NCBI GenBank assembly: GCA_017652545.1
Contig: JAGCAV010000099.1
Location: 1 to 14,299, forward strand
Direction: 5' to 3'
Length of the DNA stretch: 14,299 nt
From: Lachnospiraceae bacterium
GTDB taxonomy: Bacteria > Bacillota_A > Clostridia > Lachnospirales > Lachnospiraceae
Shown one piece after another: positions 1,905 through 11,637 of this stretch; positions within the stretch are counted from its first letter, which is position 1, and every line of letters begins with the position of its first letter. The notes beneath the pieces are model-generated. The model did no database searches. It was not told the DNA's origin and was given only the letters and a program-made list of their open reading frames with translations. Made by a program: the position numbers and the translations under genes.

Positions 1905-2768
1905 ATGCGACAGTACCAGAACAGATGCTTCCTTCTGCAGCCTGTGACGGGACCGGACCGGAAACGGACCGGAGGAGCGCTTTTTCTGCTGGGATGCCTG
2001 GTCATCCTGACAGTATTTTCATTCAGGGCGGAATGGCCCCTGTGGCCGTCAGCCCCTGCAGTCAGTGTGCTGGAAGACGGTGCGCTGCATGTGGATGCGA
2101 GCAACCTGTCAGATGGGTATTTTACAGCCCGGTCGCTGGAAAACAGTGAGCACAGGCTGAAAATGCGTGTGGAAAAGGAAGAGACAACCCTGACTTATGA
2201 CCTGGGAGGCGCGGGCGAGGAGGAGACGTTCCCCCTTCAGCTTGGCGACGGAGAGTACCAGGTGACCATGTATGAAAATGTGGGCGGCAAAAAGTATGCA
2301 CAGGCAGGCCATGTCAGCCTGACGGTGCAGCTTTCCGATTCCCTTTCTCCATATCTTTACACAAACCAGTATGTGAATTACGGGCCGGATTCCCCTGTGA
2401 TGGAAGCCGCCGCGCAGCTGTCAGGCGCTGCGGCCGGCAGGGAGCTGTACGATGCGGTCTGTGACTTTTTAAGATCGGGATTCGCTTATGATTACGTTCG
2501 GGCGATCACCGTGGAAGCCGGGGCGCTGCCGGATATTGACAACTGCTACATGACGAAAGCCGGCATCTGCCAGGACCTTTCCGCGGTGGCGGTCTGCCTG
2601 CTTCGTTCCGGCGGTGTTCCCGCCAAGCTGGTGATCGGCTACGCAGATGACAACTACCATGCATGGGTCCTCGCATACCCGGAAGGAGAGGAACAGTTCT
2701 TTGATCCGACAGCGGAGCTGGATGCCATAGCGCACCCCGGAGATTACGCTGTGGAGAGGTGGTACTGA
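1905..2768 (+). CDS. Membrane-anchored transglutaminase-like (papain-fold) protein
   Basis: A 287-aa protein with a short basic N-terminus, one membrane segment (about residues 23-40, GGALFLLGCLVILTVFSF) and an extracytoplasmic region. The C-terminal part carries the transglutaminase-like triad: Cys222 in KAGICQDLSA, His252 in NYHAWV and Asp267 in FFDPTAE. Members of this family act as proteases or amide-exchanging enzymes; the substrate cannot be read from the sequence. Residues about 52-145 look like a beta-rich domain of unknown type. The start is the only plausible ATG, because an in-frame stop lies at 1887-1889, yet the ribosome site is weak (GGTGAAG about 13 nt away), just after a strong leader hairpin. 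It leads the pilus-like gene cluster with a 32-nt gap to the next gene. A role in processing or cross-linking exported proteins is inference. Confidence 0.85.
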   Translation: MRQYQNRCFLLQPVTGPDRKRTGGALFLLGCLVILTVFSFRAEWPLWPSAPAVSVLEDGALHVDASNLSDGYFTARSLENSEHRLKMRVEKEETTLTYDLGGAGEEETFPLQLGDGEYQVTMYENVGGKKYAQAGHVSLTVQLSDSLSPYLYTNQYVNYGPDSPVMEAAAQLSGAAAGRELYDAVCDFLRSGFAYDYVRAITVEAGALPDIDNCYMTKAGICQDLSAVAVCLLRSGGVPAKLVIGYADDNYHAWVLAYPEGEEQFFDPTAELDAIAHPGDYAVERWY

Positions 2769-2800
2769 ATACAGTGTGAAGTTTGGAGAGTTGAGAGTGG

Positions 2801-3868
2801 GTGTATACAGTTATGAAGAACCGAGGAAAAGTAAAGAAAATAGATCACAGCGAGCTGAGCAGCTTCTGTGGCCAGACCGCACTCGTTCTGGAAGCCGGGC
2901 TGCCCCTGTTTGACGGTCTTGAGACACTGGCCCTGACGAACAGGGAAAGTCCGTACGCGGATATGTATGAGGCTGTCGCCAAAACCGTAACAGCCGGAGG
3001 CTCCCTCTATGAAGCGCTGGGGGAGGATGAGCGCTGGCCGTCCTACATGAGGGAAATGGTCGGGATCGGTGAAAGAACCGGACAGCTGGAACATGTTCTC
3101 AGAGGACTTGAGACTTATTTTGACAGAGAGGAAAGGATACGCGCATCCGTAAAGAGCGCAGTCACCTATCCGCTGACACTGGGTATCATGCTTGCCGTGA
3201 TCGTGCTGATCATGCTCTGGAAGGTACTGCCTGTTTTCCGGGATGTACTGGCCGGCATGGGAATGGCGGCTGATGGAGCCGGCGGGTTTATGCTCCGGCT
3301 TGGAACAGTCGTCGGATGGACGGTGCTTGTCCTTGTCGCGCTTGCGCTTGCCTGCGCGCTGGTGACAGCCGGCCTGATGCAGACCAGGCACGCTCCGGCA
3401 GTCCGGGAAGTTCTGATGAAGGTCTTTACACCGATCCGTAAGCTGGAGGCGGCTCTTGGCGCATCCCGGGTAGCCAGCGTTCTGTCCATGATGCTTTCAG
3501 GCGGCTTTTCCGTCCGGGAAGCGCTGGAGCGGACGGAAAGCGTTGTCGAATCCGATCCGGCTACCTGCGCGAAGGTGAAGGGAATCATGGACCGGATGGA
3601 TGAGGGTGAGTCCTTTGCGGATGCGCTTGAGGCGTCAGAGATCTTCAGCCCCATGCACAACCGGATGATCCGGATGGGTGCCGCCGCCGCAAGGGAGGAT
3701 CAGGTATTCGCGAAGATCGCGGATATCTGCGAAGAACAGGTACAGAAGGATGTCGGGACACTGGTCTCCGTCATTGAGCCTTCGCTTGTAGGCCTGCTGA
3801 CGGTCGTGATCGGCGCTGTTCTCCTATCGGTCATGCTGCCTATGGCAGGAATGCTTTCAACGCTTTAA
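2801..3868 (+). CDS. PilC/GspF-like platform protein of a type IV pilus/type II secretion system
   Basis: A 355-aa inner-membrane protein with the duplicated T2SSF (GspF/PilC) architecture. Domain 1 is about residues 18-120 (LSSFCGQTALVLEAGLPLFD, then IGERTGQLEHVL at 89-100), membrane segments lie at about 122-146 and 168-192, domain 2 at about 215-325 (LSMMLSGGFSVREALE, FSPMHNRMIRMG), and a final membrane segment at about 327-350. PilC-type proteins form the cytoplasmic-membrane platform on which pilins are assembled and with which the motor ATPase interacts. The protein is shorter than the usual roughly 400 aa of PilC, closer to ComGB size. A GTG start (2801) is taken because GGAGAG (2785-2790) lies 10 nt upstream; an in-frame ATG at 2813 is the alternative. 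The T4P-like genes follow immediately. Confidence 0.9.
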   Translation: MYTVMKNRGKVKKIDHSELSSFCGQTALVLEAGLPLFDGLETLALTNRESPYADMYEAVAKTVTAGGSLYEALGEDERWPSYMREMVGIGERTGQLEHVLRGLETYFDREERIRASVKSAVTYPLTLGIMLAVIVLIMLWKVLPVFRDVLAGMGMAADGAGGFMLRLGTVVGWTVLVLVALALACALVTAGLMQTRHAPAVREVLMKVFTPIRKLEAALGASRVASVLSMMLSGGFSVREALERTESVVESDPATCAKVKGIMDRMDEGESFADALEASEIFSPMHNRMIRMGAAAAREDQVFAKIADICEEQVQKDVGTLVSVIEPSLVGLLTVVIGAVLLSVMLPMAGMLSTL

Positions 3869-3870
3869 CA

Positions 3871-4179
3871 GTGAAAAACATGATTAGAAAAGACGCAGTA
3901 AAACTATTCATATTTCTGACGGTGATCGCGGCGTTCTATCTGATCACGATGCGGATGGGATCCGTCCAGAAACGGGAGGAAAGCGCGCTTGTTGAGGAGG
4001 CGGTCCGTTCCGCAACCTGCGTATGCTATGCCGTGGAAGGCTCATACCCGCCGGATATCGATTATCTGAAAGACAACTATCACCTGATGTATAACGAGAA
4101 GAAATACCGGATCACATACCGGGCCTTCGCGTCCAATGTGATGCCGGATATCTATGTGGTTGAGAGGGGAGACGGATGA
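3871..4179 (+). CDS. Small single-membrane-segment protein of the pilus-like cluster (unknown)
   Basis: A 102-aa protein with a charged N-terminus (MKNMIRKDAVK), one hydrophobic segment at about residues 12-26 (LFIFLTVIAAFYLIT), then a soluble part of about 75 residues with an EGSYPPDIDYL...YRITYRAF pattern. The shape (short basic head, one helix, small globular tail) resembles a pilin, but no prepilin peptidase motif (Gly followed by hydrophobic residues and Glu at +5) is present. I do not recognise a named family. The GTG at 3871 begins 2 nt after the upstream stop, so translation is probably coupled; an ATG at 3880 is the other choice and neither has a good ribosome site. It overlaps the next gene by ATGA. 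A structural or accessory role in the machine is inferred from context. Confidence 0.75.
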   Translation: MKNMIRKDAVKLFIFLTVIAAFYLITMRMGSVQKREESALVEEAVRSATCVCYAVEGSYPPDIDYLKDNYHLMYNEKKYRITYRAFASNVMPDIYVVERGDG

Positions 4180-4661
4180 CAAACGCACCGAATCATAACG
4201 GGATCTCATCGCTCTTTGCCTTCCTGCTGCTTGGAATGTTTGCGCTGTCATGTGTCTTTCTGACTGTTCTGGGGGCACGTGCATACCGAAGCGGCAACGC
4301 TGCCTGTACGGACCATAATACGGACAGGATCCTTTCTTCCTACATCCGGAGCATGGTCCGGACAATGGATGAGGCGGGTGTGATCAGCACGGAAAACATT
4401 GACGGCATGGAGACGCTGACCCTTACGGAAACATATGACGGGGAAGCGTATGTGACCCGTCTGTACTGCAGCGGGGGGAAACTCAGAGAGTGGTTTTCCT
4501 CGGCAGCCTATCCGTTCGAACCGGAAAACGGGACGCCGGTCTGCGACGCAGTGGACATGAAGATCAGCCTGGCCGGTGATCTGATCACCGCAAAGCTGCA
4601 GGAGACCGCGGAAAGAGAGCCGCTTCACGTGGCTGTGAAGGTGTTCTGCAGCGGGACATGA
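4176..4661 (+). CDS. DUF4860-like membrane protein of the pilus-like cluster
   Basis: A 161-aa protein that starts with a GAGAGGGGAG ribosome site and overlaps the upstream stop in an ATGA arrangement, which suggests translational coupling. A short hydrophilic head (NAPNHNGISS) precedes one membrane helix (about residues 11-34, ending LGARAYR), followed by an extracytoplasmic region of about 125 residues with a YVTRLYCSGGKLREWF segment. This layout matches what I recall as DUF4860, a family of unknown function in clostridia, but I could not check the profile. No prepilin signal is visible. It probably works with the PilC-like and PilT-like neighbours as a minor pilin-like component; that is inference. 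Confidence 0.75.
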   Translation: MTNAPNHNGISSLFAFLLLGMFALSCVFLTVLGARAYRSGNAACTDHNTDRILSSYIRSMVRTMDEAGVISTENIDGMETLTLTETYDGEAYVTRLYCSGGKLREWFSSAAYPFEPENGTPVCDAVDMKISLAGDLITAKLQETAEREPLHVAVKVFCSGT

Positions 4662-4689
4662 CCGGCTGACAAAAGAAAAATCACGAATA

Positions 4690-4731
4690 GTTACACAAGT
4701 AACCGACTGCGTAACCTGAGGCTGCTACAAT
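4690..4731 (+). promoter_or_regulatory. Internal extended -10 promoter with an upstream GTTAC inverted repeat
   Basis: In the largest gap of the cluster (4662-4797), TGC-TACAAT (TACAAT at 4726-4731) makes a good extended -10, while the -35 region is poor. Just upstream, GTTAC-ACAA-GTAAC (4690-4703) is a perfect inverted repeat, and a further GTAAC follows at 4711-4715, overlapping the region RNA polymerase would cover. A poor -35 plus such repeats is the pattern expected of an activated or repressed promoter; this is inferred. Confidence 0.45.
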
Positions 4732-4797
4732 ACAGTTATCCGAAGCGGCCGGAAGTATGCAGGCGGGCTCTGAAATGCGGATGAAGGGAACGTGTAT

Positions 4798-5187
4798 ATG
4801 CAGGGCTCAAAAAGAGGAAATATTCTGCTGCTGGAACTGCTGATCGTGATCGCGTTCTTTATGCTGGGAGCCGCGATCCTGATGCAGATGTTCGGAAAGG
4901 CCCGGGTCCTGACGATGCGCTCGGATGCGCTGACAAGGTCTGTGGGACGCGCCGCCAGCCTGGCGGATATCCTGATGTCAGAGGAAGACAGGTCTGTTAT
5001 GCTCAGCGAACTCGGCGCAGAGCCGACGCAGGACGGATACAGACTGGAAGAGGATGATATCACCTATATCATAACTTTTGAGGAACCGGAGGGAACGCTT
5101 CCGGTTCGGGAAGGCCAGGTGAAAGCCTGGTGGGGCGAAGAGGAACTGCTGACACTTCCTCTTGTGCAGGTGCCGGAGGCGGAGTAG
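4798..5187 (+). CDS. Pilin-like protein with an off-register prepilin signal
   Basis: A 129-aa protein. The ATG at 4798 is preferred over an upstream GTG at 4792 because AAGGGA (4784-4789) is 8 nt from the ATG but only 2 nt from the GTG. The N-terminus MQGSKRGNILLLELLIVIAF strongly recalls the class III prepilin signal (basic head, Gly, hydrophobic helix with an early Glu, then LLIVI), and is followed by a typical pilin helix to about residue 32. However, Glu13 is at +6 relative to Gly7 rather than the canonical +5. The soluble tail is short and acidic (about 95 residues). Its own promoter may lie in the preceding gap. It is the closest thing to a pilin or pseudopilin in the cluster. Whether a prepilin peptidase processes it is unknown. 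Confidence 0.82.
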   Translation: MQGSKRGNILLLELLIVIAFFMLGAAILMQMFGKARVLTMRSDALTRSVGRAASLADILMSEEDRSVMLSELGAEPTQDGYRLEEDDITYIITFEEPEGTLPVREGQVKAWWGEEELLTLPLVQVPEAE

Positions 5188-5190
5188 AGG

Positions 5191-5682
5191 ATGAGCAGAT
5201 CGAAGGAAGTGCAAAAAGGAGCCGGACTGATCCGCATGGGACCCGGCGCGGCATCGCTGATCCTGATCTTTGTCATGCTGGCGCTGAGTATCCTGGCAAT
5301 GCTGACGCTGGTGAATGCGAAAAATGATGAGCAGATCAGCGTGCGCAGTGCAAGAGTCACGGAAGCGGTCTATGATCTGGAGGCGCAGGCGCAGCGGATC
5401 TACGGAAAGATCCTGTACCTGTGCCGGGAAGCGGATGAGGAGATCCGGCAGGATACGGCCCGGCTGAGCCGTGAGGTGGCAGCGCGTGTGAACGAAGAGG
5501 CGGGGGATGGCATGCCGCTGCTGAACGCGCAGGAAGATACGATCTCATGGACAGTCACAGATGGTGTAAGAAGTTTTGAATGTACGGTCCGGCTGACCGG
5601 AGAAGACAGGAAACAGGCGGAATGGATCCTGCACCGGATGAACATGGACGGGATATGGACGGAGGACGAATGGAACTTTTAG
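5191..5682 (+). CDS. Minor pseudopilin-like (GspK/PilX-style) membrane protein
   Basis: A 163-aa protein starting 3 nt after the previous stop, with GGAG (5181-5184) at 6-nt spacing. A basic, glycine-containing head (about residues 1-19) leads into one hydrophobic helix (about 20-42, AASLILIFVMLALSILAMLT), followed by a charged, probably helical region (DLEAQAQRIYGKILYL) and a small C-terminal beta-like part. The GAAxLIL...LALSILAM pattern resembles minor pseudopilins of the PilX/GspK type, which in known systems may also lack Glu at +5. Detailed homology cannot be shown by eye. Its 3' end overlaps the pilT start by 13 nt, binding the two genes into one transcript. Confidence 0.75.
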   Translation: MSRSKEVQKGAGLIRMGPGAASLILIFVMLALSILAMLTLVNAKNDEQISVRSARVTEAVYDLEAQAQRIYGKILYLCREADEEIRQDTARLSREVAARVNEEAGDGMPLLNAQEDTISWTVTDGVRSFECTVRLTGEDRKQAEWILHRMNMDGIWTEDEWNF

Positions 5683-6728
5683 ATATCTTGAGCAAAGCAG
5701 TGGAGATGGACGGGGCGGACATTTTTATCATTCCCGGCGCACCGGTCAAGGTTAAGGTGAACACTGATTTCAGGAGCCTGACGGATGACCGGATGCTTCC
5801 GGAAGATACCGAGCGGCTGATCAGGGAGATGTACGCACTGGCCCGCCGGGACATCTCGCGTCTGGCTTCCGGCGGTGATGATGATTTTTCATTCGCCGTA
5901 CGGGATATGAGCAGGTTCAGGTGCAACACCTACTATCAGCGCGGATCGCTTGCCGCGGTCTGCAGGGTCGTGAAAGCCCAGCTGCCGGATCCGGAGATGT
6001 TTCATATTCCGCAGGCAGTGATGGATCTGACAGAAGCACACAACGGCATGATCCTTGTGACCGGACCGGCCGGCAGCGGAAAAAGTACAACGCTGGCCTG
6101 CATGGTGGACCGGATCAACCGGACCCGGAGCGGACATATTGTGACCATTGAGGACCCGATCGAACACCTTCACCGGCATCAGCAGTCCCTGGTGACGCAG
6201 CGGGAGATCCCTTCAGATGCTGCGACCTTTCCCAGTGCACTCAGGGCAGCGCTCCGGGAGGCGCCGGATGTGATCATGCTCGGAGAGATGCGTGATCTGG
6301 ATACCATCCGGACAGCGATCACGGCAGCGGAGACGGGACACCTGCTTCTGTCCTCGCTTCATACGAGCGGAGCGGCCAAGACGATCGACAGGATCGTGGA
6401 CACCTTTCCGGCAGCGCAGCAGGCGCAGGTCAGGATGCAGCTGTCGACAGCGCTCAGAGCGGTCGTATCCCAGAAACTCGTACCCACGACGGATCAGAGA
6501 AGGATTGCGGTATTTGAGGTCATGCGGGCAACACCGGCGATCCAGAACCTGATCAGGGACGGAAAGACATATCAGATCGACAACGCGATCTACGCAGGCG
6601 GCGGACAGGGAATGATCTCAATGGACGCCCAGCTGATGCGGCTGAAGCAGGAGGGAACCATTACCGCCGGTACGGCGGTGACATATGCCATGAATGCGGA
6701 ACTGATGCAGAGGAGACTGAACCTGTAA
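5670..6728 (+). CDS. pilT: PilT-type ATPase (type IV pilus retraction motor family)
   Basis: A 352-aa secretion-superfamily ATPase. The ATG at 5670 follows GGAGG (5661-5665); a longer in-frame opening from 5580 would run through the previous gene and adds no family-like sequence. Motifs are complete: Walker A GPAGSGKST (132-140), Asp box IEDPIEH (160-166), Walker B VIMLGEMRD (201-209, Glu206) and His box HLLLSSLHTSGAAKTIDRIV (224-243). GEMRD (PilB/GspE usually have GEIRD), the AAKTIDRIVDTFPAAQQAQV stretch and the C-terminal AIQNLIRDGKTYQI segment (290-303; AIRNLIRE in known PilT) all place it with PilT rather than an assembly ATPase. It would form a cytoplasmic hexamer docked on the PilC-like protein. 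It is the only ATPase of the cluster in view, so it may drive assembly or secretion here rather than retraction alone (inference). Confidence 0.93.
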   Translation: MELLDILSKAVEMDGADIFIIPGAPVKVKVNTDFRSLTDDRMLPEDTERLIREMYALARRDISRLASGGDDDFSFAVRDMSRFRCNTYYQRGSLAAVCRVVKAQLPDPEMFHIPQAVMDLTEAHNGMILVTGPAGSGKSTTLACMVDRINRTRSGHIVTIEDPIEHLHRHQQSLVTQREIPSDAATFPSALRAALREAPDVIMLGEMRDLDTIRTAITAAETGHLLLSSLHTSGAAKTIDRIVDTFPAAQQAQVRMQLSTALRAVVSQKLVPTTDQRRIAVFEVMRATPAIQNLIRDGKTYQIDNAIYAGGGQGMISMDAQLMRLKQEGTITAGTAVTYAMNAELMQRRLNL

Positions 6729-6798
6729 AAGTGCGGAGATACATCCGTTCGGGCAGGACTGCCGGCAGGATTTGGATATGAACAGGGGGAGAACGAAG

Positions 6799-9681
6799 AT
6801 GAACAGAACAGTAAAATGGAGAATGGCAGTGATAGTGCTGATCGCCATGGCTGTCATGGGAATGAGTGCATCGGCTGCTTCGATCAGCGTCAGGGTCCTT
6901 AATCTCCGTGTTGGGGACAGCTACAAGCTCAAGGTGAAGGGGGCCGGAAAAAAGAAGGTCACCTGGAAGACCAGCAGCAAAAAAACGGCGACTGTGTCCA
7001 AAAAGGGGATCGTTAAGGCAAAAGCTGCCGGAAACGCAAAGATCACCGCGAAAGTCGGCAAGAAAAAATATACCTGCAATGTGACGGTCAGGACTGCCGT
7101 CAGGGAAGCCAACGGTGGCGGTGCCGCCGGCGGAAGTACAGGCAGCGGAAACAGGACCGGTTCCGGAACAGGATCGGGATCGGGATCCGGCTCCGGTTCG
7201 GGGATCGGGACACCGGCAAGCACGGGTTCGCCGGCCTCCTCGTCGGGCTCTGCTGTTCAGAATAAGAACCAGAACCCGGATCCGATCAATTCAAGCGGTC
7301 TTTCCGGAGAGGAACTGGCCTGCTACAACACCCTGGTAGGTTTCAAGGCGACCCATCCGGAGGGGATGATCTATACCAATGCGGATTACTATGCATGGAA
7401 GGGCGGCATCTACAGGGGCGGCTACGGCTGCGCGGGATTTGCCTTCATGCTCAGCGACGCGTATTTCGGGACAAGAGCCGCTCAGATGAAACCCCTCCCT
7501 GATTACACAGACAACATCCGGGTAGGAGATGTCCTCCGGCTGGATTACAATACGCATTCGGTCATCGTGCTTCGTGCCTACAGCACCCATGTGATCGTGG
7601 CTGAAGCGAACTATAACAGGTCCGTTCACTGGGGAAGAAAGATCACCAAATCCGAGATCAGGACCACAGGGACCCATGTGCTGACCAGATATGGCGGCGA
7701 AACCCGCACGATGGGCCAGATCCGGGCCATGTGGGAAGTGCTGCCTGATCTTGACGGAGAGGGCATTTCCGGAGAGGAAGGCGGGCAGGAAAGCACGCCG
7801 GAGGCAGCCGCAGCGGAAGTACAGAGCGCTACTGCAGAGGAGACGCATCAGGCACCGGCGCCGGAACCGGAGACAAAGGAAAGCCATGAACCGGCTGTGA
7901 AGGAGCCTGCACCGGCAGCACCTGCCCCGGCAGAACCTGCTCCGCAGCCTCATCAGGAGCCGGCCCCCGCACCTGAACCGGAAAAGAGTGAACCTGCTCC
8001 GCAGCCGGAAAAAAGTGAACCTGCTCCGGAACCTGAAAAACCGGCTGCAGAACAGCCTGTGATTAATGAGCCTGCTGCTCCGGCCGCAGGGCAGGAGCCG
8101 TCCTCTGAACCGGCTGCCGCAGAGGAAAATGCTGCCGGTGGCGCGGATGAACAGAAAGAGACGCCTTCATCCGAAACTGCGCCGGCGGGAGAAGAGATGA
8201 CGGAAGAAGCCGGCGGCGGAAAGGATGGAGAAGATCCCGAGGCTGCGGAAACCGAAACAGAAACCGAAATGTACGGCGAGGACGGGCTCGGCGCCGAAGA
8301 GGAGATGGATACCCTGAAGCAGGCTGAAGAGGCTGCCCAGATGGAAGCTGAGCACCAGGCCGGAGAAGAGGACGGGGATCCTGAGGAAAAAGACAAAGAG
8401 ACAGCCGATGAGAAGGGTGACGAAGAGGATGAGGCATATCTGAATGAAACCTTTACGGCGACGCTTCAGATCACCTGGGATGACCAGGACGGAGCGCTGG
8501 ATACCAGGCCGGGCGGTGTGGAAGCGGCTCTGGTCGGAAGCGGATGCCCGATCTCACCCGGAGATTTCCTGAACGACCTGGCGATCAGCTACGCGGTGGG
8601 CGGCGTGAAAATGCTCAATGAGAGCAACGGCTGGACAGCTGTGTGCGAAGGCCTGCCCGCGTATCAGAGAAACGAAGATGACACACTGAAGAAAGAGGAT
8701 GGAAAACCTGTTCCGGAGACATACACCTGGCTGATCGAGAATGTTGTCGGCTATGATGCCATCGGATACGGACCGGCTGTCGGAGGGGTATCCGCAGACA
8801 GCCCGAACTGTGCCATTACACTGGCACTGGCAACCGGAACCGCCAATCTGACCAGTCAGACGGTGACCTTCATCTGGGAGGATGAAGACAACGCGGAGGG
8901 CTATCGCCCCGCGTCAGCCACAGTGACGCTCTCAGACGGACAGACCGTTTCCCTTTCAGCGGACAACAGCTGGACAGGTACGATCGGAAATCTTCCGCTG
9001 TATCAGGATGGGGAACGCATCAACTACAGCTGGGTCACCGACGGGATTCCCTACTATTACGTGAGAGAGGTCCTCATTGAAGGAACGCTCACGACCTTTA
9101 CCCTGACGCTGACACCGCCCTCTGAGGTTGAGAAGCACACCCTTACGATCAGATATTACGTCAAGAATGCAAAGGGTAAGAACAAAAGGGCCTTCCCCGA
9201 TTTTGTGGGTATCTATGAGACCGGTGAAGCATACAATGTCAAATCTCCTTCCATGACCGGATATACACCGACTGAAAAGCGGGTGAAGGGGACGATCACG
9301 GCTGATACCAGGGTGAATGTTTACTATAAAGCCAATGAGTATACAGTCCGGGTCCGTTATCTGTATGAGAACGGCCAGGAGGCAGCCGGCGCCTATGAAA
9401 CGACCCTGAAAGCGGACAGCAGCTATCAGGTGGCATCCCCGGAACTGGCAGGCTATTCAGCCTCCATGACGAATGTCAGCGGCAAGGTCGAAGGCAGGGA
9501 TATTGAAGTGACCGTTTACTACACAGCCATACCGGCACCGGCTCCGCAGAGCCCGGAAGGGACACAGGCTCCGCAGGAAAGCACGCAGCAGGCAGAGCCC
9601 GCTCCGGTCATTATTGATGATTACAAGACACCGCTGGGACTCGGGGCTCTGATCCTGAATGCGGGTGACTGCTTTGAATGA
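6799..9681 (+). CDS. Large secreted multidomain surface protein (BIG2, Cys-peptidase-like, Cna_B-like, MucBP-like)
   Basis: A 960-aa exported protein. The ATG at 6799 is chosen because AGGGGGAG (6784-6791) lies 7 nt upstream; TTG 6772 and ATG 6778 are alternatives. In order: signal peptide (1-26, ending SASA); BIG2-like domain (about 28-97, VGDSYKLKV...VTWKTSSKKTATVSKKGIVK); Gly/Ser linker (about 105-150); a Cys-peptidase-like domain resembling NlpC/CHAP folds (about 165-318) with Cys211 in GYGCAGFAF, His253 in THSVIVL and Asn271 as candidate catalytic residues; a long Pro/Ala/Glu-rich, very acidic stalk (about 330-548); two Cna_B-like domains (about 551-680 and 686-774); two MucBP-like repeats (about 779-843 and 846-908); a Pro-rich linker and a compact tail (about 938-960). 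There is no LPXTG motif and no terminal membrane helix. It sits directly after pilT. Domain calls are by pattern; substrate and role are unknown. Confidence 0.85.
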   Translation: MNRTVKWRMAVIVLIAMAVMGMSASAASISVRVLNLRVGDSYKLKVKGAGKKKVTWKTSSKKTATVSKKGIVKAKAAGNAKITAKVGKKKYTCNVTVRTAVREANGGGAAGGSTGSGNRTGSGTGSGSGSGSGSGIGTPASTGSPASSSGSAVQNKNQNPDPINSSGLSGEELACYNTLVGFKATHPEGMIYTNADYYAWKGGIYRGGYGCAGFAFMLSDAYFGTRAAQMKPLPDYTDNIRVGDVLRLDYNTHSVIVLRAYSTHVIVAEANYNRSVHWGRKITKSEIRTTGTHVLTRYGGETRTMGQIRAMWEVLPDLDGEGISGEEGGQESTPEAAAAEVQSATAEETHQAPAPEPETKESHEPAVKEPAPAAPAPAEPAPQPHQEPAPAPEPEKSEPAPQPEKSEPAPEPEKPAAEQPVINEPAAPAAGQEPSSEPAAAEENAAGGADEQKETPSSETAPAGEEMTEEAGGGKDGEDPEAAETETETEMYGEDGLGAEEEMDTLKQAEEAAQMEAEHQAGEEDGDPEEKDKETADEKGDEEDEAYLNETFTATLQITWDDQDGALDTRPGGVEAALVGSGCPISPGDFLNDLAISYAVGGVKMLNESNGWTAVCEGLPAYQRNEDDTLKKEDGKPVPETYTWLIENVVGYDAIGYGPAVGGVSADSPNCAITLALATGTANLTSQTVTFIWEDEDNAEGYRPASATVTLSDGQTVSLSADNSWTGTIGNLPLYQDGERINYSWVTDGIPYYYVREVLIEGTLTTFTLTLTPPSEVEKHTLTIRYYVKNAKGKNKRAFPDFVGIYETGEAYNVKSPSMTGYTPTEKRVKGTITADTRVNVYYKANEYTVRVRYLYENGQEAAGAYETTLKADSSYQVASPELAGYSASMTNVSGKVEGRDIEVTVYYTAIPAPAPQSPEGTQAPQESTQQAEPAPVIIDDYKTPLGLGALILNAGDCFE
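7159..7209 (+). repeat. Gly-Ser microrepeat linker in the surface protein
   Basis: Seventeen codons of mostly alternating Gly and Ser (residues 121-137), written with varied codons (tcg, tcc, tct-type Ser mixed). The codon variation suggests the linker is maintained at protein level rather than being a fresh slippage tract. Confidence 0.75.
7978..8031 (+). repeat. Tandem 27-bp repeat encoding PEKSEPAP(Q/E) in the acidic stalk
   Basis: Residues 394-402 and 403-411 are two near-identical nonapeptides, PEKSEPAPQ and PEKSEPAPE, with closely matching DNA. A degenerate third copy (PEKPAAEQP) follows. They lie within a broader EPAP-rich region, a likely site of length variation between strains. Confidence 0.75.
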
Positions 9682-9702: not shown

Positions 9703-11637
9703 ATGAAGATCAGATGTTTAATCAGAACCGCATTGACAGCCGCTCTCGGCGCAGCGCTCCTGGGCTCCTTTGCATTTGCTGCGGACATCCCGGAAGTCGG
9801 GGTTGCCGCGGAAACATCGGAAGCATCCGGCGAAGAGACCGGACAGAAAAAGGATTATGAACAGCTCACGGTGGGCAGCACAACAGCGCTCACCGGCGCC
9901 TTCTTTACGGACATGTGGGGGAACGGCGCAGCGGATCTGGATGTCAGGACGCTGCTGCACGGCTATGACCTGATCCGCTGGAACGCCGCGGACGGCATTT
10001 TTGAGGCGGATCCCTCCGTGATCAGCGGTGTCGTTGCCACGGAAGATTCCTCCGGCAACCGGACCTTTACGATTTCCCTGTACTCGGATATGAAGTACAG
10101 CGACGGCACGCAGATCGGCGCGGCGGATTACGCGTTTGCCATCCTGCTGACGGCTTCTCCCGAGGTGGAACAGATCGGGGGCAGGATCGGGAAGTCCTCC
10201 TTCATCCTCGGATACGATGCCTACCTCAGCGGGGAGAAGAAAGCCTTTGAGGGTGTCAGGATCCTCGGGGAAAGAGAACTGGCTGTGACCATCCGCGCGG
10301 ATTATCTGCCATACTTTTATGAGCTGGGGCTGTTGAATTTCTCACCGGCTCCCATCTCTGTGATCGCTCCCGGATGCACAGTGAAGGACGACGGAGAAGG
10401 CGCCTATATCAGCAGCGAAGGAGCGGCGGAACCGTTCAGCGCGCAGCTGCTTCAGAAAACGATCCTGGATGGCCAGATCGGCTATCTTTCCCATCCGTCC
10501 GTCGTCAGCGGTCCGTATGTGCTGACTTCTTTTGACGGATCAGAAGCTTCCTTTGAGATCAATCCCATGTACAAGGGCGATTCAAAAGGCAACAGGCCGT
10601 CCATTGAGAAGATCAGGTATGTCCTTGCAGATAATGAGACCATGATGGATGAGCTTCAAAGCGGAAGGATCGGGCTGTTGAACAGGGTATCTGCGGCAGG
10701 ATCCGTACAGCAGGGCATCGCGCTGGTCAACGGCAAGGACGGCGGATTTGCCATGAGCTCTTATCCCAGGTCCGGAATGAGCTTTATCTCTTTCTGCGGT
10801 GAGACAGCTGCAGGGGGATCCAATCCGGTCAGGCAGGCTGTTGCGTACTGCCTGGACAGGGAGGAAGTGACAAAAGGCTACGAGGGAACGCTCGGCGTGG
10901 CCATGAACTGCTACAGCGGACTTGGACAGTGGATGTATCAGGCAGATCCGGAGGAGTACGGGCAGAGCCTGGAAGGCATCAGGACATACGGCGCAGACGA
11001 GGACATGGAAGAGAACATCAGCGCCGCGGCAAAGCTTCTGGAAGCGGACGGATGGACGCTGAACGAGGCGGGAGACGCGTTTGATGCCGCCGCTGATCCG
11101 GTCAGGTACAAAAAAACGGATGCAGGCCTTGTGAGATTATCCATGACGCTGCTGTATCCGGAAGGAAGCCGGATCGGTGAACTGCTGGGGGAGCATCTGG
11201 CTGATCATGCCGCTCAGGCAGGCATGGAGATCATTCTTCAGGGTGAAGACATGGGAAGCCTTCTTGCCCGGTATTACGGAAGGGAAGAACGGACCTGTGA
11301 CATGATGTACCTGGCAACGAACTTTGATATGGTATTTGATCCGGCAGAAGACTTCACGGAAGAGAACGGACAGATGTGCTGGAAGAATACGCATATTCCG
11401 GCGGATGAGCTGGAAAAACTGGCTGTGGACATGCGCAGGACCAGGCCGGGCGATCTGGAGTCCTACTACGGAAAATGGGTGGCTTTCCAGGAAGCTTTCA
11501 CCACCATTCTGCCGATGATTCCTGTTTATTCCAATGTCTATTTTGACTTCTACACGGATGCCCTGAAAGGGTATGAACCTTCTGAAAATATCACCTGGCC
11601 GATGGGGATCACCGGGGCGGCTCTGTCAGACGGATAA
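9703..11637 (+). CDS. Extracellular solute-binding protein, family 5 (oligopeptide-binding type), without lipobox
   Basis: A 644-aa protein preceded by GGGGGAG with good spacing and only 21 nt after the surface-protein stop, so probably cotranscribed. The N-terminus (MKIRCLIRTALTAALGAALL, then GSFAFA) is a Sec signal peptide likely cut near residue 26-27; Cys5 lies before the hydrophobic core and cannot be a lipobox. The body follows the SBP_bac_5 pattern of peptide/nickel-binding proteins: LTVGSTTALTGAFFTDMWGN at about 55-74, LHGYDLIRWN at about 85-94, SDMKYSDGTQIGAADYAFAI in the first lobe, SGPYVL before the hinge, and a conserved-looking VRQAVAYCLDREEV segment. No permease or ABC ATPase gene is nearby. 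Most Gram-positive binding proteins are lipoproteins, so this one may be released or held by another route. The ligand is unknown. Confidence 0.88.
   Translation: MKIRCLIRTALTAALGAALLGSFAFAADIPEVGVAAETSEASGEETGQKKDYEQLTVGSTTALTGAFFTDMWGNGAADLDVRTLLHGYDLIRWNAADGIFEADPSVISGVVATEDSSGNRTFTISLYSDMKYSDGTQIGAADYAFAILLTASPEVEQIGGRIGKSSFILGYDAYLSGEKKAFEGVRILGERELAVTIRADYLPYFYELGLLNFSPAPISVIAPGCTVKDDGEGAYISSEGAAEPFSAQLLQKTILDGQIGYLSHPSVVSGPYVLTSFDGSEASFEINPMYKGDSKGNRPSIEKIRYVLADNETMMDELQSGRIGLLNRVSAAGSVQQGIALVNGKDGGFAMSSYPRSGMSFISFCGETAAGGSNPVRQAVAYCLDREEVTKGYEGTLGVAMNCYSGLGQWMYQADPEEYGQSLEGIRTYGADEDMEENISAAAKLLEADGWTLNEAGDAFDAAADPVRYKKTDAGLVRLSMTLLYPEGSRIGELLGEHLADHAAQAGMEIILQGEDMGSLLARYYGREERTCDMMYLATNFDMVFDPAEDFTEENGQMCWKNTHIPADELEKLAVDMRRTRPGDLESYYGKWVAFQEAFTTILPMIPVYSNVYFDFYTDALKGYEPSENITWPMGITGAALSDG

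Follow-up and report, generated by a model that had tools for sequence, protein, structure and literature searches.

Can a machine of the type IV filament kind work with a retraction-class ATPase as its motor and with pilins that keep their leaders? This question is raised by a unit of seven genes in a Lachnospiraceae bacterium (assembly GCA_017652545.1), of which positions 1 to 14,299 of contig JAGCAV010000099.1, here called the window, were analysed. According to PMC10790768, the universal core of type IV filaments consists of pilins, a prepilin peptidase, an extension ATPase and a platform protein. The unit combines a platform protein, four small pilin-like proteins and a PilT-class ATPase with a transglutaminase-like enzyme, and in most of the related genomes that were searched neither an extension ATPase nor a prepilin peptidase could be identified. 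It very probably represents an architecture that is derived from type IV filaments, driven by a PilT-class motor and independent of leader cleavage.

Gene content and layout of the unit

The ORF (open reading frame) list and profile scans place seven ORFs at positions 1905-6728, all on the plus strand and in the order TG-F-p3-p4-p5-p6-T. The unit is headed by TG (1905-2768), a transglutaminase-like cysteine enzyme, secreted or membrane-anchored (Transglut_core PF01841, 1.1e-10), which is followed by F (2801-3868), a platform protein of the PilC/GspF type matched by T2SSF (PF00482, 3.9e-41) in two stretches. The small proteins are p3 (3871-4179), with a predicted pilin fold and without a canonical prepilin signal, p4 (4176-4661), a DUF4860 protein (PF16152, 1.3e-19) that we read as a derived prepilin, p5 (4792-5187, with ATG 4798 as a possible start), likewise a derived prepilin, and p6 (5191-5682), a one-helix protein which by position and by reading is possibly a minor pilin like GspK/ComGG. 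The ATPase T (5670-6728) closes the unit; its start is probably ATG 5670 rather than 5580, which places it inside the end of p6 with GGAGG directly upstream. Successive gaps between the ORFs measure 32, 2, -4, 130 and 3 bases, and after these p6 and T overlap. The gap between p4 and p5 (4662-4791, 130 bases) exceeds that of most relatives and contains a GTTAC-ACAA-GTAAC hairpin.

A first-pass annotation, made from the letters of this DNA alone, had described a transglutaminase, a platform protein, four one-helix proteins and a PilT ATPase here. All of these genes were found in their places; only the start of the ATPase had to be moved, from 5580 to about 5670. The same annotation had noted that the set is without PilB, a prepilin peptidase, PilM and a secretin, and indeed none of PilB, PilD, PilM or a secretin is present among the ten window ORFs that were scanned. 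The Pfam scan revealed no family above cut-off for p3, p5 and p6, and the Rfam scan of the window no match. A scan gave 14 promoter sites (mean of shuffled sequences 8.2) and 18 terminator sites (11.0) and was not used.

In TG the residues Cys222, His252 and Asp267 are invariant in 84 of 84 aligned sequences. With this Cys-His-Asp triad TG is assigned by sequence to the transglutaminase-like superfamily, and it may have a crosslinking activity. The best 19-residue hydrophobic stretch of the window's TG lies at residue 22. By eye, the N termini of TG in some relatives are lipobox-like or signal-peptide-like, and the enzyme therefore probably works outside the membrane. F matches Myxococcus PilC in the PDB with 3.7e-29, and T2SSF matches were found in all 50 relative genomes introduced below.

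Conservation and distribution

Species genomes were scanned with T alone, and the best 80 of 286 places together with the window gave a first set of 81 loci (loci and genomes carry L and G numbers). Profiles built from the seven proteins of the window matched TG in 73 of these loci, F and p3 in 76 each, p4 in 77, p5 in 78, p6 in 79 and T in 81. The order of the seven genes is identical in 73 loci, 66 of them exactly and 7 with an over-long or split ORF call; L003 and L022, in which TG lies 1.8 and 1.1 kb before F, are counted among them. Six loci are interrupted by contig ends (L009, L010, L018, L032, L041, L055). The exceptions are L063, which lacks TG, and L049, where T stands alone despite 5 kb of upstream sequence. 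Since no cluster of neighbouring genes outside the unit is common to more than 22 of the 81 loci, TG and T were taken as its borders.

In a second draw, 398 genomes over the phylum of G048, which is the centre of the draw and already belongs to the first set, were searched with DUF4860 alone. A match was found in 14 genomes (13 over the cut-off), and in all 14 the genes F-p3-p4-p5-p6 are adjacent. So the DUF4860 family, of which p4 is a member, marks the unit in every matched genome; no paper naming this family was found in the literature searched. In most of the 13 genomes besides G048, TG and T adjoin the five genes. TG lies about 3 kb away on the opposite strand in G436, the contig starts within F in G376, and the order differs in G257. 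G192 has a PilT-class gene about 37 kb off on the same contig, beside DprA- and YifB-like genes. The class of G257 has DUF4860 in 13 of 46 genomes; among nine new ones, six contain the whole unit and three are cut by contig edges (L155, L158, L161), L158 also being without TG. The first-pass annotation had proposed conservation of the gene order as a check on the cluster, and both sets bear it out.

Record titles and the 398-genome draw show that the unit occurs beyond the Lachnospiraceae. Most of the genomes are metagenome bins by title, for which completeness figures are not given. Four loci (L002, L004, L005, L048) are titled Flexilinea or Chloroflexi, and their T is 66-67% identical to that of the window, like the Clostridia-titled records; these may be mislabelled bins or cases of transfer. 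The p4 in a record named Clostridium sp. D33t1_170424_F3 is 99% identical to the p4 of L120 (G428), which suggests that this Clostridium is probably a cultured carrier of the unit. In G428 no PilB was found, but a single contig carries one A24 peptidase match together with a further PF00437 ATPase.

The ATPase

T scores 403 bits against TIGR01420 (PilT, cut-off 319), in comparison to 121 for PilB, 123 for GspE and 140 for ComGA, whose cut-off is 300. Against solved structures the values are 313 bits for PilT of Aquifex and about 90 for PilB. The Walker B motif GEMRD is present in 100 of 100 T sequences of the unit, the His box and the Asp box in 95 each, and Walker A, searched with a narrow pattern, in 79. 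By these comparisons T is a PilT-class ATPase that keeps its catalytic motifs, and the retraction class named in the first-pass annotation stands.

A motif like AIRNLIRE is found in 91 of 100 unit sequences, mostly with Gln replacing Arg, and AIRNLIRN in all eight canonical PilT listed (of nine). A quick tree, which includes 28 of the 81 first-set loci, was calculated from 48 unit rows and nine canonical PilT rows. The nine canonical proteins group together with support 100, and a separate branch with support 94 holds 46 of the 48 unit rows.

Extension ATPases and prepilin peptidases in the host genomes

Genome-wide absence was tested in relatives, namely in 50 genomes to which the 80 loci led and in 13 from the wider draw. 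The PF00437 scan, for which in most of the 50 genomes 31 of the first-look candidates were scored, found the unit's ATPase in all 50. A match of PilB size and PilB strength (428-438 bits, frames of 585-645 residues) was identified in eight genomes, and G011 contains a PilB fragment at a contig edge; no PilB match was found in the other 42 of the 50 genomes, or 41 if this fragment is counted. Peptidase_A24 matches, all over the cut-off, occur in 14 of the 50, so 36 are without a match for a prepilin peptidase. The canonical prepilin motif N_methyl was found in ten. At least one of these three features is present in 15 of the genomes and none in 35. As positive controls 14 known genomes were searched, with PF00437 found in 14, A24 in 12 and N_methyl in eight. 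Completeness was gauged by ComEC, which is present in 45 of the 50 genomes; incompleteness can therefore not explain the 42 missing PilB. In 36 of the 50 genomes the unit's T is the sole PF00437 match above 35 bits.

G257 is the one genome among these 63 in which a prepilin peptidase adjoins the unit; the nine genomes of L154-L162 lay outside this search. PF11104 (PilM) is over the cut-off in 26 of the 50 genomes, and strong or near full-length (frames of 338-352 residues) in nine, which are the eight PilB genomes and G011. The remaining matches are short and partial, mostly in frames of 390-435 residues that by our reading are FtsA; those in G005 and G050 are doubtful. Inside the unit no PF11104 match was found in any of the 50 genomes.

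The eight PilB genomes contain a canonical pilus locus elsewhere, with its own PilB, PilT and PilC. Because both persist side by side in these genomes, the unit is not a remnant of the canonical locus. A complete pilus locus elsewhere that uses the genes of the unit had been named in advance as the finding that would speak against a separate machine; the eight loci found are of a different kind, as they bring their own parts and their PilT falls on the other branch. In most of the 50 relatives neither a PilB nor a prepilin peptidase was found that could serve the unit.

The small proteins

Reading of the p5 sequence places Asn (codon 4819-4821, plus strand) at position -1, the site of Gly in canonical prepilins, and Glu (codon 4834-4836, plus strand) at +5 of the would-be mature protein. 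Glu+5 is kept in 100 of 100 unit sequences, Gly-1 in one. Asn at -1 is found in 72 of 78 first-set sequences and in 72 of 100 of all unit p5. Gly-1 is missing even where the genome has a peptidase, for example in G436 and G192.

The locus L125 of genome G257 has the gene order T-F-p3-p4-p5-p6-PilD-TG, with both PilD domains present, and no PilB-strength match was found in this genome. Its p5 homologue carries the canonical GFTLVE (N_methyl 3.7e-6, over the cut-off), and in its p4 homologue DUF4860 (1.3e-14) is joined to KGYTLVELL, with a weak N_methyl match (0.0086, under the cut-off). Judged by these motifs, L125 is an intermediate that links the unit to canonical prepilins, and L125 and the main clade look like states before and after the loss of core parts. 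Motif comparison makes p5 a descendant of canonical prepilins and p4 very probably another; the small proteins, at least in part, are on this basis derived type IV pilins. The place of L125 in the tree is unresolved, and the order of losses therefore rests on gene content and on the prepilin motifs.

The p3 of the window is 25-51% identical to that of the 80 relatives. Its predicted structure has a pilin fold, with the filament pilin PilA4 as best match; Foldseek returned nothing for p3 and p6 at E <= 0.001, and the p3 profile found no match among PDB sequences. The VIA-align list for p6 mixes pilins with unrelated folds, and nothing was rested on it. An acidic residue directly ahead of the hydrophobic helix of p3 was seen in 65 of 98 sequences with a loose pattern; in the sequences inspected it is roughly the fifth residue of the uncut chain, and it may be a stand-in for Glu+5.

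Comparison with known systems

The Com pilus of Firmicutes (ComGA-GG and ComC) shares with the unit a platform, few small pilins and a single ATPase, and the first-pass annotation had pointed to the likeness with a comG operon. The likeness holds for size, but not for the class of the motor or for the peptidase: the Com pilus has the extension ATPase ComGA and ComC, whereas the unit has a PilT-class ATPase and TG, and its hosts in the clade of the window are mostly without a peptidase. PMC10790768 gives eight parts for the Com pilus, with ComC cleaving all five pilins, and a minor-pilin complex of four proteins, the same number as p3-p6.

With the type IVa pilus (PilA/B/C/D/M/N/O/T) the unit has in common the PilC-type platform, the PilT-class ATPase and pilin-like subunits. 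Unlike it, the unit lacks PilB, PilD and PilM, and its PilT lies outside the canonical PilT branch. The pseudopilus of type II secretion (GspF, G-K) likewise has a platform and small pilin-like proteins, and its GspH-I-J-K tip is perhaps similar to p3-p6. The unit has neither GspE nor GspO, in contrast, and the window ORFs scanned include no further type II part. A single ATPase that serves the whole machine is shared with Tad/type IVc systems. These have TadV, two platform proteins and an ATPase of the CpaF type (in part after PMC6916266); the unit differs in having one platform protein and a PilT-class motor. Two further points come from the literature, that pilT homologues are present in many pil operons (PMC3244431) and that MSH loci are without a peptidase, but that their host genomes have one (PMC6668835).

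The unit is derived from type IV filaments, yet it is not a strict member of the superfamily because it departs from defining features that were tested. A platform protein (F) is present. Prepilin peptidase and extension ATPase were not found in most of the 50 genomes, and the unit's own ATPase is of the PilT class. The class III signal peptide of type IV pilins is missing in the unit, as the Gly-1 count of p5 (1 of 100) and the N_methyl count (10 of 50 genomes) indicate; in the relative L125 it is present. No description of this unit was found in the literature searched, and the earlier suggestion of a divergent, poorly described clostridial envelope machine gains support from the conserved unit and from the absences of PilB and peptidase.

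Proposed mechanism and alternatives

We suggest, with a probability of about 0.5, that the unit encodes a short, membrane-locked pseudopilus that is cycled by the PilT-class motor and works with an extracellular TG. Of the four parts universal in the type IV filament superfamily, from which it would derive, it would have given up the extension ATPase and the prepilin peptidase. In the systems studied so far, pilins that are not cleaved are not extruded into a filament, and the four proteins should therefore assemble on the platform into a short complex that stays anchored. Uncleaved p3-p6 would remain in the membrane and expose their heads on the outer side; they would make up a short pseudopilus, or a complex like a pilus tip, and not a long filament that is extruded. 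The ATPase would turn or pull the platform and so give the p3-p6 complex a retraction-type stroke, which may move, pull in or hold an extracellular substrate that TG cuts or crosslinks; candidate targets of TG are the heads of p3-p6, a surface protein or the wall. More tentatively, and with less than even confidence, we propose that a PilT-class motor alone together with leader-retaining, permanently anchored pilins makes a non-filamentous, pull-only engine coupled to TG, which is widespread in gut Clostridia and whose stepwise origin, with first PilB and then the cleavage site and PilD lost, would be visible in its relatives.

Several findings weigh against the proposed pseudopilus. What the unit does is deduced from its genes, and a PilT-class motor alone does not exclude filament growth. 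p4 and p6 can be called pilins only from their descent or position or from weak structural likeness. The uncleaved state of p3, p4 and p6 is putative, as a glycine stands ahead of the helix in 100 of 101 p6 and in 56 of 99 p4 sequences. The unit of G192 (L115, L149) has no adjoining T. G366 (L126) has F-p3-p4-p5-p6 without TG in a genome without any PF00437 match, and may be a further reduced form or an incomplete bin. In the PilT tree neither L125, which has a long branch, nor the distant PilT of G192 belongs to one of the two groups, and their placement is not firm. As the controls recovered A24 in 12 and N_methyl in eight of 14 genomes, a few of these may be missed. A further PF00437 ATPase of at least 80 bits was found in 14 of the 50 genomes, namely the eight PilB genomes, G011 (the fragment) and G002-G004, G021 and G050, whose extra ATPases we read as Tad-like; G257 has four other PF00437 matches of 94-181 bits. 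Finally, the wider draw gave PilB in six of its 13 genomes, A24 in ten and N_methyl in eight. The association of the unit with genomes free of a peptidase is strong within the clade of the window and becomes weaker beyond it, so the absence of PilB and PilD suspected at first holds for that clade and less well elsewhere, and independence can be claimed for a part of the family only.

In the alternative of a real filament, the PilT-class ATPase would power growth as well as retraction, and the subunits would either polymerise in uncleaved form or be processed by some other protease. This alternative has some points in its favour and is still unlikely in our view. The catalytic motifs of T are kept (Walker B in 100 of 100), the best match of p3 is a filament pilin, and Glu+5, which pilins use in assembly, is present in every p5. 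One ATPase for both jobs is also reported for the Tad system of Caulobacter (PMC6668835). On the other side, p5 has lost Gly-1 in 99 of 100 sequences and no match for a prepilin peptidase was found in 36 of 50 genomes, while leader cleavage is required in the type IV filaments studied; the Com prepilins, for instance, are cut by ComC (PMC10790768). A pseudopilus for DNA uptake in competence appears improbable, slightly more so than the filament. The size and make-up of the unit are comG-like, ComEC is present in 45 of 50 genomes, a comEC gene precedes TG by about 1.4 kb in L080 (2-2194) and follows T at a distance of about 7 kb in L079 (17937-20054), and the nearest PilT-class gene of G192 adjoins the YifB- and DprA-like genes. 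ComEC and the unit share a contig in only two of the 45 genomes, however, and a general link to comEC was rejected on this count. A phmmer look at ComEC in the loci was not used for counts, as two true ComEC barely match each other. By our reading a short ComEA-like frame (<300 residues) occurs in 26 of 50 genomes, in nine over the cut-off, and in none of the eight PilB genomes; the other ComEA matches lie in frames of 497-840 residues, or are weak and in frames above 1,400.

An ordinary type IV pilus operon with PilB and PilD encoded elsewhere would agree with the canonical loci of the eight genomes, with the pieces in G011 and with the peptidases in ten of the 13 wider-draw genomes. It is very improbable nevertheless, as 35 of 50 genomes show no PilB, A24 or canonical prepilin, p5 is without Gly-1 also in the peptidase genomes G436 and G192, and the eight canonical loci have their own PilT and PilC; it was rejected since neither PilB nor PilD was seen in most genomes of the clade. 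That the locus is a decaying pilus remnant, free of selection, is hardly credible at all. Two core parts are missing, as a remnant would have it, but seven ORFs stand in one order in 73 of 81 loci across wide divergence (see p3), and the TG triad (84 of 84) and Walker B are invariant. This conservation led us to reject the remnant.

Neighbouring genes

Upstream of the unit the window encodes MurC on the minus strand (259-1677; TIGR01082, 463 bits). Downstream, on the plus strand, follow a large surface protein (6772-9681) with Big_2, Cna_B and MucBP domains, a family 5 solute-binding protein (9703-11637), and two ORFs that we read as GlgC and GlgD. The C-terminus of the surface protein reads ...DDYKTPLGLGALILNAGDCFE. 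A similar C-terminal motif was seen in proteins of L003, L015 and L054, and a looser one in L011; it is possibly a sorting or processing signal.

We also looked for families recurring beside the unit. Within 3 kb of it lie 41 of 43 matches for a BTAD regulator, 46 of 47 for GGDEF, 26 of 31 for Hpt and 17 of 20 for sortase, against 0.47 expected by length; the seeds of this test were taken from beside the unit and kinship was ignored, so that these figures are leads only. Pfam confirmed four sortases and one BTAD regulator among the neighbours. A second group confirmed in this way comprises a BTAD protein, an Hpt protein and three GGDEF proteins, one of which also has EAL. Sortase genes (PF04203) adjoin the unit in L116, L118, L154 and L157, and similar genes are found in L114, L121, L156 and L160.

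Significance

A conserved system with a platform, pilin-like subunits and a PilT-class ATPase, but with neither extension ATPase nor peptidase, would show which parts of the machine can be separated. The unit offers a natural test of two questions, namely if PilT has a fixed direction and if pilins that keep their leaders can work. With it, the unnamed family DUF4860 and a recurrent operon of the gut become testable.

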